From an uncultured Planctomycetota bacterium (lineage in GTDB: Bacteria; Planctomycetota; Brocadiia; CAIUPP01), in assembly GCA_903901045.1 (NCBI GenBank), contig CAIUPP010000023.1, positions 1 through 64,000 of the forward strand: 64,000 bases of DNA. Reading direction: 5' to 3'. The notes beneath the pieces were generated by a model. The model had not been told where the DNA came from, made no database searches, and was given only the letters and a program-made list of their open reading frames with translations. This document shows positions 52,097-59,621 of the stretch, piece after piece (position 1 is the first letter of the stretch; each line of letters opens with the position of its first letter). The position numbers and the translations under genes are program-made.

Positions 52097-53650
52097 CTAC
52101 AAGCTCGCCGCGCGTGCCTTGCTCCCCTTAACGACCGGCTTCCTCCCCCGCGACAGGGAGGAGTTGATCGCCTTGAGGTACGCCAAAGCGCTGGCCTGAA
52201 TTATGTCCGTGCTGACGCCGCGAGCCAGGATGCTCCGGCCATCCACTTCCACCTCGACGCTCACCTCTCCCTGGGCGTCCTTGCCCACGGTGACGGCCCG
52301 AATGCGGTAGTCCTTCAACCGCGCTTTGACCCCCGTGAGCCGCTCAATCGCCTTGTACAGGGCATCCACCGGGCCATCCCCGGTTGAGGCATCCTGCAAG
52401 CTCTCCCCCTTGAGGTTCAGAAGCCGCACGGTGGCCGTCGGGATGGAGTGCGTGCCGCTGCTGATTTGGACGCTCTCCAGCCGGTACGTCTCCTCCACCT
52501 GGGCGAACTCATCCTCGAGGATCGCCTGCACGTCCTCATCGTAAACCACTTTCTTCTTATCGGCCAGGATTTTGAAGCGGTCGTACGCGACGATCAACTG
52601 CTCGTCGGTGAGTTTGAATCCGAGGTCCTCCGCGCGCACGCGCAAGGCGTGGCGGCCGGAGTGCTTGCCGAGCACCAGGCTGCTGCGCGGGACGCCGACG
52701 TCCTCGGGGAGCATGATTTCGTACGTGCGGCGTTCCTTGAGCATCCCATCCTGGTGGATGCCCGACTCATGGGCGAAGGCGTTCTCCCCCACGATGGCCT
52801 TGTTGCGCTGCACTTGCATGCCGGTGAGGGTGCTGACCATCCGGCTGGTGGCGAACAACTTGGGGGTGGCGATGCCGGTGTCGCATTGGAAATAGTCGCG
52901 GCGCGTCTTGATCGCCATGACAATTTCCTCCAGCGAGGCGTTCCCCGCGCGCTCACCCAACCCGTTGATGGTGCACTCCACCTGGTCCGCCCCGGCCATG
53001 ACGGCGGCGAGGCTGTTGGCCACGCCCAAGCCGAGGTCGTTGTGGCAATGCACGCTGATGACCGCTTTGCCGATGTTGGAAACGGTCTCCCGGAGGCTGC
53101 GGATCGTCGCGGCGTACTGTTCGGGCATGGCGTAGCCGACGGTGTCGGGAATGTTCACCGTCGTCGCGCCCGCGTCGATGACCGCCTCCACCACTTCGGC
53201 CAGGAAATCCGGCTCGGTGCGCGAGGCGTCCTCGGGCGAGAACTCGATGTCCCGGGTGTACTTCCCGGCGTGGCGCACGCTGTCCACGGCGATGCGGACG
53301 ATTTCGGACTTCGCCTTGCGGAGCTTGAATTTCCGGTGGATCTCGCTGGTGGCGCAGAAGACGTGGATGCGCGGCTTGCGCGCTTTGGCCAACGCCTCGC
53401 CGGCGCGGTCGATATCCTTCTCGACCGAACGCGCCAAAGCGCAGATCGTCGGGCCTTTGACCGCCTGCGCAATGGCCTGCACCGCCTCGAAGTCGCCGGG
53501 GGAAGTGATCGGGAAACCGGCTTCGATCACGTCCACCTTCAATTGCGCCAACTGGCGGGCGATCTGGATTTTTTCCGGGAGGTTCAGGCTGGCGCCGGGG
53601 GATTGCTCGCCATCCCGCAGCGTGGTGTCGAAGATGATGATGTGTCGCAT
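52097..53650 (-). CDS. leuA: 2-isopropylmalate synthase
   Basis: 517 residues, normal for the long LeuA type. Catalytic N-terminal TIM barrel starts IIIFDTTLRDGEQSPGASL with HCHNDLGLGVANS, GLGERAGNASLEE and HESGIHQDGMLK; the C-terminal allosteric domain (from about 390) ends in the STDIIQASALAYLKAINSS region. First committed step of leucine synthesis, feedback-controlled by leucine by family knowledge. ATG 53650 has GGAGA seven bases upstream. Lies 0.6 kb from ilvC with a HicB-like remnant between. Confidence 0.96.
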   Translation of the reverse strand: MRHIIIFDTTLRDGEQSPGASLNLPEKIQIARQLAQLKVDVIEAGFPITSPGDFEAVQAIAQAVKGPTICALARSVEKDIDRAGEALAKARKPRIHVFCATSEIHRKFKLRKAKSEIVRIAVDSVRHAGKYTRDIEFSPEDASRTEPDFLAEVVEAVIDAGATTVNIPDTVGYAMPEQYAATIRSLRETVSNIGKAVISVHCHNDLGLGVANSLAAVMAGADQVECTINGLGERAGNASLEEIVMAIKTRRDYFQCDTGIATPKLFATSRMVSTLTGMQVQRNKAIVGENAFAHESGIHQDGMLKERRTYEIMLPEDVGVPRSSLVLGKHSGRHALRVRAEDLGFKLTDEQLIVAYDRFKILADKKKVVYDEDVQAILEDEFAQVEETYRLESVQISSGTHSIPTATVRLLNLKGESLQDASTGDGPVDALYKAIERLTGVKARLKDYRIRAVTVGKDAQGEVSVEVEVDGRSILARGVSTDIIQASALAYLKAINSSLSRGRKPVVKGSKARAASL

Positions 53651-53859: not shown

Positions 53860-54071
53860 TCATACGCCGTCAAACGCTTTGAGAAGGTCACCGCGCAAAA
53901 CATCCTGGGCTATTGCCCAAACGTCTCAATGTGGAACTGGAGCGCGGACTTGAGGTCCGCCACCGCCGCCTCGTACGTGTCACCCTCCCCGACAATCACG
54001 CCCTTGACTCCAAGCGGATAGGCGACGTACCCGTCGGGGTGCTTTTCAACCACAATCTTGAGCATTCTCAT
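53860..54071 (-). pseudogene. HicB-like antitoxin, probably frameshifted
   Basis: From ATG 54071 (GGAGG ten bases upstream; ATG 54065 also possible) a 53-residue HicB-like protein reads MRMLKIVVEKHPDGYVAYPL, GVKGVIVGEGDTYEAAVADL, KSALQFHIETFGQ and stops at 53910. Directly after, the other frame continues AQDVLRGDLLKAFDGV to 53860, resembling the missing C-terminal tail. This suggests one frameshift. No HicA-type toxin gene is adjacent, so the pair may be decayed or this is an orphan short HicB protein. Confidence 0.55.
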
Positions 54072-54218: not shown

Positions 54219-55298
54219 TTACTTCTTCGCCTTCTTGCCGGACGCCTTGCCCCAGTTCTCCGGGCGCAGGGAGCGGACGGCTTCGCCCGCCCGCCACATT
54301 TCGGAGTCGTGGATGACCTTGAGCTCTTTGCCCAGTTTCTGGCGATAGTCCGGAGCGCTGTTGATCTTGAGCGTGCGCGCGCACTCCTTGCCGGTCTTGA
54401 CGGAGTTGTACAGATTCTTGAAGACGGGCTCGACGGCCTTCCTGAAGATCGGGGACCAGTCGAGCGCGCCGCGCTGCGCCGTGGTGGAGCAGTTGGCGAA
54501 CATCCAGTCCATCCCGTTCTCCCCCACCAGCCGGATGAGGCTCTGGGTCAGTTCCTCGACGGTCTCGTTGAACGCTTCGCTGGGGGTGTGGCCGTGCTTG
54601 CGAAGCTCGTTGTACTGGGCTTCCATCACGCCATCCAGGCAGCCCATGAGCACGCCGCGCTCGCCGACGAGATCGCTGGTGACTTCATGATCGAACGTGG
54701 TCGGGAAGAGGAATCCGCTGCCGATGGCCACGCCGAGGGCCAGGGTGCGCTCGAGCGCGCGGCCGGTGGCGTCCTGGAAGACGGCGAACGAGCTGTTGAT
54801 GCCGCTGCCGGAGAGGAAGTTGCGGCGCACGCTCGTGCCGGAGCCCTTCGGCGCAACCAGGATGACGTCAATGTTCTTGGGCGGAATCACCTTGGTCTGC
54901 TTCTTGTACACGATCGAGAAGCCGTGGCTGAAGTAGAGCGCCTTGCCCGCGGTCAAGTGCTTCTTGACGCGCGGCCAGAGGATTTTCTGTGCGGCGTCGC
55001 TGACGAGGTATTGGATGATGGTGGCGCGCTGGACGGCCTCTTCGATGTCGAAGAGGGTCTTGCCCGGCTTCCAGCCATCCTTGACGGCCTTGTCCCAGTA
55101 GAACTTATCGCTCTTGGACTGGCCGATGATGACCGGCACGCCGTTGTCGCGCATATTGAGCGCCTGGGCGGGGCCCTGGACGCCGTATCCGAGGACGGCG
55201 ATCACTTCATCCTTGAGCACTTTGCGGGCGCGAGCGAGGGGGAATTCATCGCGCGTCACCACGGTTTCCCACACGCCGCCGAAATTCATCTTGGCCAT
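54219..55298 (-). CDS. ilvC: Ketol-acid reductoisomerase
   Basis: 359 residues. N-terminal Rossmann domain with VIAVLGYGVQGPAQALNMRD and the cofactor-selecting loop IGQSKSDKFYWD; then APKGSGTSVR and the knotted C-terminal domain with LGVAIGSGF, DLVGERGVLMG and ANCSTTAQRGALDW. Uses NAD(P)H to make dihydroxyisovalerate or dihydroxymethylvalerate. AGGAG seven bases before ATG 55298. Downstream of ilvB and ilvH in one cluster; a 124-base gap separates it from ilvH. Confidence 0.95.
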   Translation of the reverse strand: MAKMNFGGVWETVVTRDEFPLARARKVLKDEVIAVLGYGVQGPAQALNMRDNGVPVIIGQSKSDKFYWDKAVKDGWKPGKTLFDIEEAVQRATIIQYLVSDAAQKILWPRVKKHLTAGKALYFSHGFSIVYKKQTKVIPPKNIDVILVAPKGSGTSVRRNFLSGSGINSSFAVFQDATGRALERTLALGVAIGSGFLFPTTFDHEVTSDLVGERGVLMGCLDGVMEAQYNELRKHGHTPSEAFNETVEELTQSLIRLVGENGMDWMFANCSTTAQRGALDWSPIFRKAVEPVFKNLYNSVKTGKECARTLKINSAPDYRQKLGKELKVIHDSEMWRAGEAVRSLRPENWGKASGKKAKK

Positions 55299-55422: not shown

Positions 55423-55899
55423 CTATCCGCCGCGCGCCATCGCAACCAGTCCCGTGCGCACCATTTCCCGGATGCCGTACGGGCGCATCATCTCGACGAA
55501 CGCGTCCACCTTGGCCTCCGGCCCGGAAAGCTCGACCATCATGTCTCCCGGGGAGATGTCCACCACCTTCCCTTCGAAGACTTCGACCAGGGCGACCACC
55601 TGCTGGCGGTTCTCGTTGTTGCAGCCGACTTTGATGAGCGCCTGCTCGCGCTGGACGATATCCTTCCCGGCGAAGTCGCTGACCTTGATGACGTCAATGA
55701 CCTTGCCGAGCTGCTTGCGCACCTGCTCCAGAATCGCGTCGTCGCCGGCGACCACGATGGTCATGCGCGACAGCGCCGGGTTCTCCGTCCGCCCGACCGT
55801 GAGAGAGTCAATGTTGAACCCACGGCTGCTGAACAGCCCGGCGATGTGCGACAGGACGCCGGATTTGTTTTCGACGATGGCGCTGATCACATGTCTCAT
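55423..55899 (-). CDS. ilvH: Acetolactate synthase small (regulatory) subunit
   Basis: 158 residues. N-terminal ACT domain RHVISAIVENKSGVLSHIAGL with SRGFNIDSLTVG, then ALIKVGCNNENRQQV and a C-terminal domain with PYGIREMVRTGLVAMARGG. Provides valine feedback to IlvB. ATG 55899 has AGGAG-like sequence (CAAAGGAGCGG) upstream. It lies 52 bases after ilvB, the gap holding short tandem words. Confidence 0.95.
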   Translation of the reverse strand: MRHVISAIVENKSGVLSHIAGLFSSRGFNIDSLTVGRTENPALSRMTIVVAGDDAILEQVRKQLGKVIDVIKVSDFAGKDIVQREQALIKVGCNNENRQQVVALVEVFEGKVVDISPGDMMVELSGPEAKVDAFVEMMRPYGIREMVRTGLVAMARGG

Positions 55900-55951: not shown

Positions 55952-57625
55952 TCATGCCATTCCGCCGATCATCCGGTTGATCGCCTGCCCGGCAGGGACC
56001 ATCGGGAAGACGTTCTCTTCCTGCTCGACGTGGACGTCGAGAATCACCGGCCCCGGCGTGCGCAAGGTCTTCTGGAGCGCGTCGCCGACTTCGCCCGGGT
56101 CGGTGATACGGTAGCCGGTGGCCCCGTACGCGTCGGCCAGCTTCACGAAATCCGGCGTCGCGCACAGAATGGTCTGGCTGTAGCGATGCTTGTAGAACAA
56201 TTCCTGCCACTGGCGCACCATGCCCAGGCAGCCGTTGTTCAAGATGACGATCTTGACCGGCAGCTTGTACTGGACCGCCGTGCCGAGTTCCTGGATGTTC
56301 ATCTGGATCGAGCCATCCCCGGCGATATCCACAACGCAGCGGTCCGGCCAGGCGACCTGCGCGCCCAGCGCCGCCGGGAAGCCGAAGCCCATCGTCCCCA
56401 GGCCGCCGCTGGAGATCAGCGTGCGCGGCCTGCGGAAGGTGTACCAGAGCGCCGTCCACATCTGGTTCTGGCCGACTTCCGTGGCGATGATGGCGTCCTG
56501 CGGCGCCATCTTGCAGAGCTGCTGAATCACCGACTGCGGCTTGATGCGCCCGCCGTTGCCGTTGTAATTGAGCGGGTGCTTGCGTTTCCAGTCTTCAATC
56601 TGCGTGTGCCAGGCCTCGCGCGCGGAGTGCGTGACCAGCGGCAGCATCTCCGTAAGGATGGATTTGGCATCGCCGACCACGGGGATGTGGGCGCGGACGT
56701 TCTTGCTGATCGACGTCGGGTCGATGTCAATGTGAATGACCTTCGCCGAGGGGGCGAAGCTGTCCACGCGGCCGGTGACGCGGTCGTCGAAGCGCGCGCC
56801 AACGGCGATGATCAGGTCGGACTCCGTGACGGCGTAATTGGCCGCGGCGGTGCCGTGCATGCCGAGCATTCCCAGGCTGAGGCGGTGGTCGCCGGGGAAG
56901 GCGCCCAGCCCCATCAGCGTCATGGTGACCGGGACGTTCGCCGCCTCGGCCAGCTTGCGCACCTCCTCGTGCGCGCCCGCGGTGATGACTCCCCCGCCGA
57001 CGTAGAGGACCGGGCGCAGCGATTCGTTGATCGCCGCCGCGGCGCTCTTGATCTGGCGCGAGTGGCCCTCCGTGACCGGCTTGTATCCCGGCAGATGCAT
57101 CGTGCGGTCCGGCTCGCCTTCCAACTCCGAGGTCGTGATATCGACGGGAACGTCGACGACCACCGGGCCGGGGCGGCCCGTGCTGGCGATGTGGAACGCC
57201 TCTTTGATGACGCGCGCGAGGTCGCGGATGTCCTTGACCAGGTAGTTGTGCTTGGTGATCGGGCGCGTGATGCCGGTGACATCCGCCTCCTGGAAGGCGT
57301 CGTTGCCGATGAGGTTGGTCTTGACCTGCCCGGTGATGGCGACCATCGGGACGCTGTCCATGTTGGCGGTGGCGATGCCGGTGGTGAGATTGGTTGCGCC
57401 GGGGCCGCTGGTGGCGATGCAGACGCCGACGCGGCCGCTGCTGCGCGCGTAACCGTCCGCCGCATGCGCGGCGCCCTGCTCGTGCCGGGTGAGGTAGAAC
57501 TTCACCGGCGCGTCATAAAGGACGTCGAACAGCGGCAGGACCGACCCGCCCGGATAGCCGAAGATGTGCTCGACTCCCTCGTTGATGAGCGAGTCCACCA
57601 GTATCTGCGCGCCCTTGGTTGCCAT
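55952..57625 (-). CDS. ilvB: Acetolactate synthase large (catalytic) subunit
   Basis: 557 residues. ThDP enzyme: HIFGYPGGSVLPLFD, the catalytic E49 of LTRHEQGAAHAADGYAR, GPGATNLTTGIA, and the ThDP/Mg motif AGDGSIQMNIQELGT...ILNN. First common step of valine, leucine and isoleucine synthesis. ATG 57625 has AAAGG seven bases upstream (an ATG at 57664 is in frame but unlikely). Its mRNA begins about 300 bases earlier with a leader peptide and attenuator. Confidence 0.97.
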   Translation of the reverse strand: MATKGAQILVDSLINEGVEHIFGYPGGSVLPLFDVLYDAPVKFYLTRHEQGAAHAADGYARSSGRVGVCIATSGPGATNLTTGIATANMDSVPMVAITGQVKTNLIGNDAFQEADVTGITRPITKHNYLVKDIRDLARVIKEAFHIASTGRPGPVVVDVPVDITTSELEGEPDRTMHLPGYKPVTEGHSRQIKSAAAAINESLRPVLYVGGGVITAGAHEEVRKLAEAANVPVTMTLMGLGAFPGDHRLSLGMLGMHGTAAANYAVTESDLIIAVGARFDDRVTGRVDSFAPSAKVIHIDIDPTSISKNVRAHIPVVGDAKSILTEMLPLVTHSAREAWHTQIEDWKRKHPLNYNGNGGRIKPQSVIQQLCKMAPQDAIIATEVGQNQMWTALWYTFRRPRTLISSGGLGTMGFGFPAALGAQVAWPDRCVVDIAGDGSIQMNIQELGTAVQYKLPVKIVILNNGCLGMVRQWQELFYKHRYSQTILCATPDFVKLADAYGATGYRITDPGEVGDALQKTLRTPGPVILDVHVEQEENVFPMVPAGQAINRMIGGMA

Positions 57626-57679
57626 ATCTGACCTTTCTATAAGAACGGCGATTTCTTGTAACATTCCTGCGAGTTAACG

Positions 57680-57740
57680 TCAACACGGACGGAGACACGG
57701 ACGACGGCACGGACAAAAACACGAACGGAAAACGACAAAC
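57680..57740. repeat. Tandem words CACGGACGGA / ACGAACGG
   Basis: AACACGGACGGAGACACGGA and following GACGGCACGGAC repeats between the attenuator and ilvB. Same family as 61620-61656. Confidence 0.6.
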
Positions 57741-57773
57741 AAAAAAACCCGCCGCCGGGTTCCCGGCGACGGG
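57741..57773 (-). terminator. ilvB attenuator terminator
   Basis: Minus strand CCCGTCGCCGGG (57773-57762), AA, CCCGGCGGCGGG (57759-57748): a 12-bp stem with one G-U, then seven T (57747-57741). The 5' arm plus one base can instead pair over 12 positions (two G-U) with 57819-57808, the last codons of the leader peptide gene, giving a mutually exclusive antiterminator. Confidence 0.9.
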
Positions 57774-57805
57774 TCTGTGATTTCCAGGTCGGCTTTCCCT
57801 GTCCC

Positions 57806-57904
57806 TCACCCGCCACCGGCGGCGCGTACAAGTACCAGTCCTACCGTCACAGGGGTGACGGCGGCGGTAATCGGCGCCAGAGCCAGCAGCAGATTGCGAG
57901 ACAT
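57806..57904 (-). CDS. ilvB leader peptide (branched-chain amino acid attenuator)
   Basis: 32-residue frame from ATG 57904 (AAGGA upstream) reading MSRNLLLALAPITAAVTPVT then VGLVLVRAAGGG. About a third of residues are Leu, Val or Ile, including LLLAL and VGLVLV, exactly what a ribosome-sensing attenuator of BCAA genes needs. It ends 33 bases before the terminator stem, and its final codons hold the antiterminator strand. A ribosome stalled at early Leu codons would leave that strand free; one reaching the stop would cover it. Mechanism is inferred from layout. Confidence 0.85.
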   Translation of the reverse strand: MSRNLLLALAPITAAVTPVTVGLVLVRAAGGG

Positions 57905-57937
57905 GGTTGTCCTTCTTAACTAACCTTTACTTAGCAC

Positions 57938-57966
57938 AATGTACGCCAACGTACGGTTGTTGTCAA
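57938..57966 (-). promoter_or_regulatory. Sigma-70-type promoter of the ilv leader
   Basis: Minus strand TTGACA (57966-57961), 17 bases, TACATT (57943-57938). Predicted start near 57931, 27 bases before the leader ATG. The spacer holds an imperfect palindrome CAACCGTACGTTG. Confidence 0.8.
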
Positions 57967-58049: not shown

Positions 58050-59621
58050 TCAGTGCGCCACTTCCACGAACCGGCTTTCCCGGATGAGCGTCACCTTCAC
58101 CTCGCCGGGGTAGGTCATCTCGGTTTCGATTTCCTTGGCGATATCGCGGCACATCTTGGCGGCGATCTTGTCGTCCACGCGCTCGGCCCCGACGATCACG
58201 CGCACTTCGCGACCGGCGCGGATGGCGTAAGCCACTTCGACGCCGGGGAACGCGCCGGCGATCTCTTCCAGGCGCTCCAGGCGCTTGACGTACTTCTCCA
58301 GCGTCTCGCGGCGCGCGCCGGGACGGGCCGCGCTGATGGCGTCGGCCGCGCTGACCAGCACGCAGTAGATATTGGCCGCTTCCTGATCGTCGTGGTGGCC
58401 GGCGATGGCCTCGACCACTTCGGGCGACTCGCCGCACTTGCGGGCCATGTCGGCGCCGATCTGCGGATGCGAGCCTTCGATCTCCTGGTCCACCGACTTG
58501 CCGATGTCGTGGAGCAACCCGCAGCGCTTGGCCAACTGGATGTCCAGCCCCAGCTCCGCCGCCATCGTGCCGGCCAGGTGGGCCACTTCGATGGAGTGCT
58601 GCAACTGGTTCTGCCCGTAGCTGGTGCGATACTTGAGGCGGCCCAGGCACTCGATCTCCATCGGATGCAGATTGTGAAGCCCGACGTCGAACGCGGCCTG
58701 CTTGCCGGTTTCCAGAATGACCTGCTCCATTTCCTTCTTGGTCTGCTCGACGACCTCTTCGATGCGGGCAGGGTGGATGCGGCCGTCGCGGACGAGTTTC
58801 TCCATCGCGCGGCGGGCCATCTCGCGGCGCACGCCGTCGAAACCGCTGATGACCACCACGCCGGGGGTGTCGTCCACGACCACGTCGAGGCCGGTGGCCT
58901 TTTCGAAGGCGCGGATGTTGCGCCCTTCGCGGCCGATGATGCGCCCCTTCATGTCGTCGCTGGGAAGTTCGACCGCGGCCACGACGCTTTCGGTGCAGTG
59001 GTCGGCGGCATAGCGCTGGATGGCGATGCCGAGAATCTTGCGCGCCTGACGCTCGGCGTTCTCCTTGGCCTCGTTGACGTAGCGCGAGACCATCTCCGCG
59101 CTTTCCTTCTGGAGTTCCGTTTCCAGCTTGCGCAGGAGCATCTGCTGCGCTTCATCGCGGGAGAGGCCGGCGACCTTCTGCAGCGTCGCCTTCTCCTGCT
59201 CCATCAACACTTCCAACTGGGCTTGTTCTTCGCTGATCTCCTTGCGCTTGAGCGCCAGGTTGCGCTCCAGAGTCTCAATGTAATTCTCTTTCTTGGTGAG
59301 CAGATCCACCTTGTGCTCGAGTCCGTCCTCGCGCTTGGCGACGCGCTTCTCTAGCTCGCGCAGTTCGGTGCGCTGCGCATTCGCTTCGGTCTCGAATTCA
59401 TCCCGCCGCTTGAGGAACTCCTCCTTGGAGGAGATGTCGGCGGCTCTCCGGGTGCGATCCGCTTCCTCTTTGGCATCCGCGATAATACGCTTGGCCTGAC
59501 TCAGTGCGGTGGTGGCGCGCAGCTTGCTGCCGATCAGGAGCGCGGCGGCGCCGATCAGAGCGCCCGCGCCCACGGCCAACGCGATCCACAATCCATTTGA
59601 TGCTTCAGCGAGGTAAACCAT
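58050..59621 (-). CDS. rny: Ribonuclease Y
   Basis: 523 residues, typical. N-terminal membrane helix ([21 protein letters not shown]), a long coiled coil with [22 protein letters not shown] domain ([21 protein letters not shown]) and HD phosphohydrolase domain ([25 protein letters not shown]). Membrane-bound endoribonuclease starting mRNA decay. A promoter and about 500 bases of untranslated sequence precede it (see 59622-60160). Confidence 0.97.

Follow-up and report, generated by a model that had tools for sequence, protein, structure and literature searches.

Upstream of ilvB in an uncultured planctomycete of the class Brocadiia, a short reading frame rich in Leu, Val and Ile codons is followed by a hairpin with a T run. 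This arrangement raises the question of whether the gene is governed by transcription attenuation, a kind of switch known to turn on the valine/leucine/isoleucine pathway when these amino acids run short. The first-pass annotation of the window (the whole stretch of 64,000 nucleotides that was analysed) had proposed such an attenuator, and conservation in relatives had been set beforehand as the test. Judging from sequence comparison and structure prediction, we conclude that the region is very probably a classical ribosome-mediated transcription attenuator of ilvB.

Elements upstream and downstream of ilvB

On the minus strand, a promoter (P1), the leader frame, an intrinsic terminator, ilvB (from position 57625), ilvN and ilvC follow one another in this order (Table 1). 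The gene upstream, rny, is encoded on the same strand and ends at 58050, with P1 situated between rny and the leader. The terminator stem (57776-57745) consists of 14 pairs closed by a 4-nt loop, and is followed by the T run. The consensus promoter, the 32-codon frame with its own ribosome site, the terminator before ilvB and an alternative pairing over 12 positions had all been described in the first-pass annotation. We could confirm each of them, and the coordinates given there were correct within 1-2 bases.

The P1 score was reached by 0.2% of shuffled sequences. When the 427-nt region between rny and ilvB was dinucleotide-shuffled 500 times, no terminator of equal strength arose, and the combination of an ILV-rich leader with a good terminator was likewise obtained in 0/500.

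Downstream of ilvC, leuA is a candidate member of the same transcript; in G001, a genome of the same family, leuA is also found about 3 kb from ilvB, on one contig. Between ilvC and leuA we noticed a frame of about 53 residues (53911-54071, minus strand, MRMLKIVVEKHPDGYVAYPLGVKG...), which appears HicB-like by eye and gave no NCBIfam match.

Table 1. Positions of the features at the ilvB locus, in window coordinates
Feature	Positions	Strand	Basis
Promoter P1, TTGACA-N17-TACATT, 10/12 consensus, sigma-70-like, 5' of leader	57938..57966	-	Sequence match
Ribosome-binding site of leader, GAAGGA, 6-11 nt 5' of ATG	57910..57915	-	Sequence
Leader ORF MSRNLLLALAPITAAVTPVTVGLVLVRAAGGG, 32 codons + TGA; Leu/Val/Ile 12/32 codons	57806..57904	-	ORF; homologue in G001
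Region 1, leader 5' half, predicted partner of leader end, sequestering the antiterminator strand (limits approximate)	57870..57894	-	Fold prediction
Proposed control codons GTA GGA CTG GTA CTT GTA (V21-V26)	57827..57844	-	Codon usage, geometry model
Region 2, antiterminator 5' strand CCGGTGGCGGGT, over Gly-Gly-Gly-stop codons	57808..57819	-	Duplex and geometry
Region 3, terminator 5' arm, common to terminator and antiterminator	57763..57774	-	Pairing
Intrinsic terminator (3:4 hairpin + T run)	57741..57776	-	Hairpin; kept in G001 with altered stem bases
Candidate promoter P2, TTGACG-N17-TACAAG, between terminator and ilvB	57655..57683	-	Counterpart in G001
ilvB, acetolactate synthase large subunit	55952..57625	-	TIGR00118, 870 bits
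ilvN/ilvH, acetolactate synthase small subunit	55423..55899	-	TIGR00119, 212 bits
ilvC, ketol-acid reductoisomerase	54219..55298	-	TIGR00465, 306 bits
leuA, 2-isopropylmalate synthase, candidate member of transcript	52097..53650	-	TIGR00973, 740 bits

Retention of the layout in a sister genus

The ilvB of the window is closest to that of G001 (87% over 142 residues). G001 belongs to a different genus; it was the sole other genome of the family compared, and carries the only homologous leader. A search with the leader peptide recovered the one known copy each in the window's genome (G000) and G001, and nothing further. The region upstream of ilvB in G001 displays the same layout, with a promoter (TTGACA-N17-TAGAAT) whose score was reached by none of the shuffles, a leader (MSRILLGTLGLTTATTGIVVVVALVRSPGGG) preceded by a ribosome site, and a terminator. 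The distance from the stop codon to the terminator is 29 nt in the window and 30 nt in G001.

About half of the residues differ between the two leader peptides. The start ATGTCTCG, the Leu/Val codons and the Gly-Gly-Gly-stop end are kept in both, as are the antiterminator strand at the leader end, the outer stem of the terminator and the T run. Bases within the terminator stem have changed with the pairing retained. This pattern suggests conservation of a switch, and not of a protein. The test set beforehand thus came out in favour of the proposal, as promoter, ribosome site, Leu/Val-rich leader, antiterminator strand and terminator are all present in the relative.

Codon choice within the leader was also examined. 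The leader of the window uses GTA for 3 of its 5 Val codons, in contrast to none of 190 in rny, ilvB, ilvN, ilvC and leuA. The values for G001 are 2 of 5 in the leader against 0 of 50 in ilvB. Rare control codons occur in other attenuators, as for example in leuL of E. coli.

Competing RNA structures and the position of the ribosome

Region 2, at the end of the leader, can pair over 12 positions with region 3, and this antiterminator excludes the terminator. The duplex of the window has a predicted energy of -24.9 kcal/mol (z = -3.9 when the upstream strand is shuffled), and that of G001 is weaker (-15.1, z = -0.95). In the window, a pairing between the two halves of the leader (1:2) was predicted from energy, not from covariation, when the leader RNA was folded with and without the terminator. 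For the ribosome-free RNA, energy prediction gave -94.6 for the 1:2 pairing plus terminator versus -83.9 for the antiterminator fold. As the former is the better fold, termination would be favoured without translation.

The influence of a translating ribosome was modelled by assuming that a ribosome at each codon hides the RNA to 11 nt past the A-site codon, at a stage when the 3' arm of the terminator is still unmade. In the window model, 12 antiterminator pairs can form with stalls at positions up to codon 24, 11 with a stall at Leu25 and 7 at Val26. With stalls from Arg27 through the stop codon, the number is 0. In this model the last Val codon sits at the boundary between freeing and hiding the antiterminator strand, as an attenuator needs. 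The modelled energy in G001 falls likewise, from -27 with the ribosome on the GTA codons to -10 with it on the stop codon, and some weak pairing of the arm persists in this last position too. In the Planctomycetota leaders described below, and in those of four contigs labelled Deltaproteobacteria, Proteobacteria, Syntrophaceae and Desulfobacteraceae, the last codons or stop of the leader usually form part of the best antiterminator strand, with several instances not individually significant.

The mechanism that we propose is as follows. Transcription from P1 would produce a leader mRNA that is translated by a ribosome. When charged Val- and Leu-tRNA are ample, the ribosome would arrive at the stop codon and cover region 2, region 3 would pair with the 3' arm of the terminator, and RNA polymerase would terminate near 57741. 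Scarcity of valine or leucine would stall the ribosome at Leu/Val codons no later than codon 26; the leader end would then pair with the 5' arm of the terminator, and transcription would run into ilvB-ilvN-ilvC. With no translation, the leader halves are predicted to pair, so that the terminator would form. The case is built on the elements, which are conserved in G001, on two pairings that exclude each other, and on the modelled geometry. From these we infer that in the cell the leader is translated, ribosomes stall and transcription terminates, which amino acids are sensed, and that ilvN and ilvC respond together with ilvB.

Leader peptides in other Planctomycetota

Regions upstream of ilvB were collected from members of the class and from a 294-genome sample of the phylum, giving 166 distinct regions. 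A strict test, demanding a ribosome site, at least 6/10 Ile/Leu/Val codons and a terminator, was passed by 9 of them. None of 1,660 shuffled regions (ten shuffled sets) passed, nor did any on the reverse strand. Besides the window and G001, convincing cases were the second ilvB of G012, from the same class, and, outside the class, members of family f41, namely G297 (MTSFKSNVVVLVTVHTVVSGVVLVGL), G164 (MNKFLMNLSVVVLVVLVVVVTT), G305, G258 and G343. A good promoter was located directly 5' of the leader in most cases. In G003, of the same class, the leader (MDRTATPLSAIVLVA) is shorter and has a consensus promoter; at this locus (L022) the -10 hexamer and the leader ATG are just 10 nt apart, so that the peptide may be translated from a leaderless mRNA. 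Regions of G314 and G246 look similar and fell below the strict cut. L175 passes the strict test with an AT-rich frame and is doubtful, and L192, L048 and L076 were judged to be chance. The ilvB genes of Brocadiaceae and most other Brocadiia displayed no such leader. Taking into account that the leaders are unlike between families, repeated origin or fast turnover of these sequences is likely.

Two further observations were made on ilvB leaders. Those of L199, L202, L220 and L225 in family f41 have in common the palindrome CGATTGCGATCG, which codes for Ile-Ala-Ile and might fold into a small hairpin inside the leader frame. Clear ilvB attenuators with Val/Ile/Leu-rich leaders were also present at L131, L136, L142 and L150, on contigs labelled Proteobacteria, Desulfobacteraceae, Syntrophaceae and Deltaproteobacteria; these four gave no Rfam matches.

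Other amino acid operons were found with similar arrangements. In G012 (L285) leuA is preceded by a leader with LLLL and in G305 (L286) by one with LLLGLLLII, and a trpE-family gene in G164 (L263) is preceded by a leader with two Trp codons (TWRFWYY); a terminator follows all three leaders. The amino acid fits the gene each time, Leu before leuA and Trp before trpE, and these leaders are likely to control leuA and trpE by attenuation in these Planctomycetota. Neither in G001 nor in the genome of the window was a leader with terminator found before trpE, ilvD or leuA. Along with G001, the independent, amino-acid-matched leaders in other Planctomycetota support the earlier suggestion that attenuation may operate in this lineage.

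A candidate second promoter and other explanations

A second promoter-like element, P2, is present between the terminator and ilvB, and G001 has TTGACG-N17-TAGAAG in the corresponding interval. The shared pattern TTGACG-N17-TA[C/G]AAG, defined after seeing the sequences, appeared in 0 of 20,000 shuffles of the window stretch and in 0.005% for the G001 stretch. The whole of the window's own genome (4.77 Mb) contains 4 matches. P2 may act as a further promoter beyond the reach of the attenuator, in which case part of ilvB transcription may bypass it. Because the pattern was written with the sequences in view and the -10 is imperfect, we regard P2 as a lead and not as a result.

Carried further, P1 and P2 could act as tandem promoters, with the P1 transcript attenuated, most ilvB mRNA originating from P2, and the switch only topping up a constitutive supply. 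The occurrence of the pattern in both G000 and G001, unexpected by chance in shuffles, and the usable ribosome site and ilvB ATG directly after P2 are consistent with this. However, the -10 of P2 is without the usual final T, its overall match of 9/12 is reached by 2-5% of shuffles, no such element was noticed in G003, and the conserved leader would be left unexplained. We consider dominance of P2 possible, if somewhat improbable.

The 32-residue frame might instead encode a functional hydrophobic small protein, the terminator merely ending its own transcript. The peptide is indeed hydrophobic, and G001 retains both of its ends, MSR and GGG. Yet the Leu/Val codons, the rare GTA and the antiterminator strand persist there in spite of the divergence of the peptide, the conserved GGG-stop coincides with the antiterminator strand, and unrelated ILV-rich leaders occupy the equivalent site in other families, which makes a function of the peptide as such very unlikely. 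Control of the terminator by a metabolite or tRNA sensor (a ppGpp riboswitch, T-box or other known RNA family), with the ORF incidental, would have a precedent, as the ilvB genes of some bacteria are under ppGpp riboswitches (PMC10272879). Against such a sensor, which we hold to be extremely improbable, no Rfam family reached the gathering score in the window and 13 related loci, and a relaxed E-value produced only unrelated sub-threshold matches at these loci. That the terminator belongs to rny, whose transcript could end there, and coincides with an accidental hydrophobic frame is scarcely credible in view of the promoter between rny and the leader, the layout kept in G001, and the failure of shuffles to reproduce that layout.

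Implications and relation to known attenuators

An attenuator of ilvB in the window would place a textbook switch in Planctomycetota, and would require coupled transcription and translation in these planctomycete cells. The patchy distribution and the unrelated leaders within one phylum offer a case for testing how frequently switches of this type originate de novo. We tentatively raise the broader idea that leader-peptide attenuation is general for the amino acid operons of Planctomycetota (ilvB, leuA, trpE), having arisen repeatedly with unrelated leaders, and that in this family it is combined with a second, unattenuated promoter after the terminator.

The mechanism is classical, and this is apparently the first case described in Planctomycetota; no report of attenuation or leader peptides in Planctomycetes was found in the literature searched, a search that most subscription journals lay outside. 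A survey from 2010 stated that leader peptides were then known only from Proteobacteria and Actinobacteria, and added Firmicutes (PMC2965389). A 2023 paper argues that uORF attenuation of ilvB is common, with motifs in several phyla (PMC10272879). A result that counts against an attenuator reading comes from Streptomyces coelicolor, where mutating candidate regulatory codons of the ilvB leader had no effect (PMC1262725).

Actinobacterial ilvB operons, like that of the window, are preceded by a short ORF containing runs of Ile, Val and Leu and by a terminator (PMC1262725). In those leaders ORF and terminator overlap, whereas in the window the two are separate and an antiterminator is predicted. 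The ilvB-II motif of Corynebacterium (PMC10272879) also has a conserved upstream frame rich in branched-chain residues, then a U-tailed stem before ilvB; the window differs in giving no Rfam match and in that its frame ends 29 nt before the terminator, not forming one compact motif. The ilvB-OMG motif, re-read as uORF attenuators in the same paper and compared here by description, likewise involves variable, branched-chain-rich uORFs before ilvB in several phyla. The ilvB(NC) attenuators of E. coli and C. glutamicum, and trp-type attenuators generally, share with the window a Val/Leu-rich leader, a terminator before ilvB and an antiterminator strand at the leader end. The likeness is one of layout, and the window is distinguished by its different phylum and by a possible second promoter beyond the terminator.
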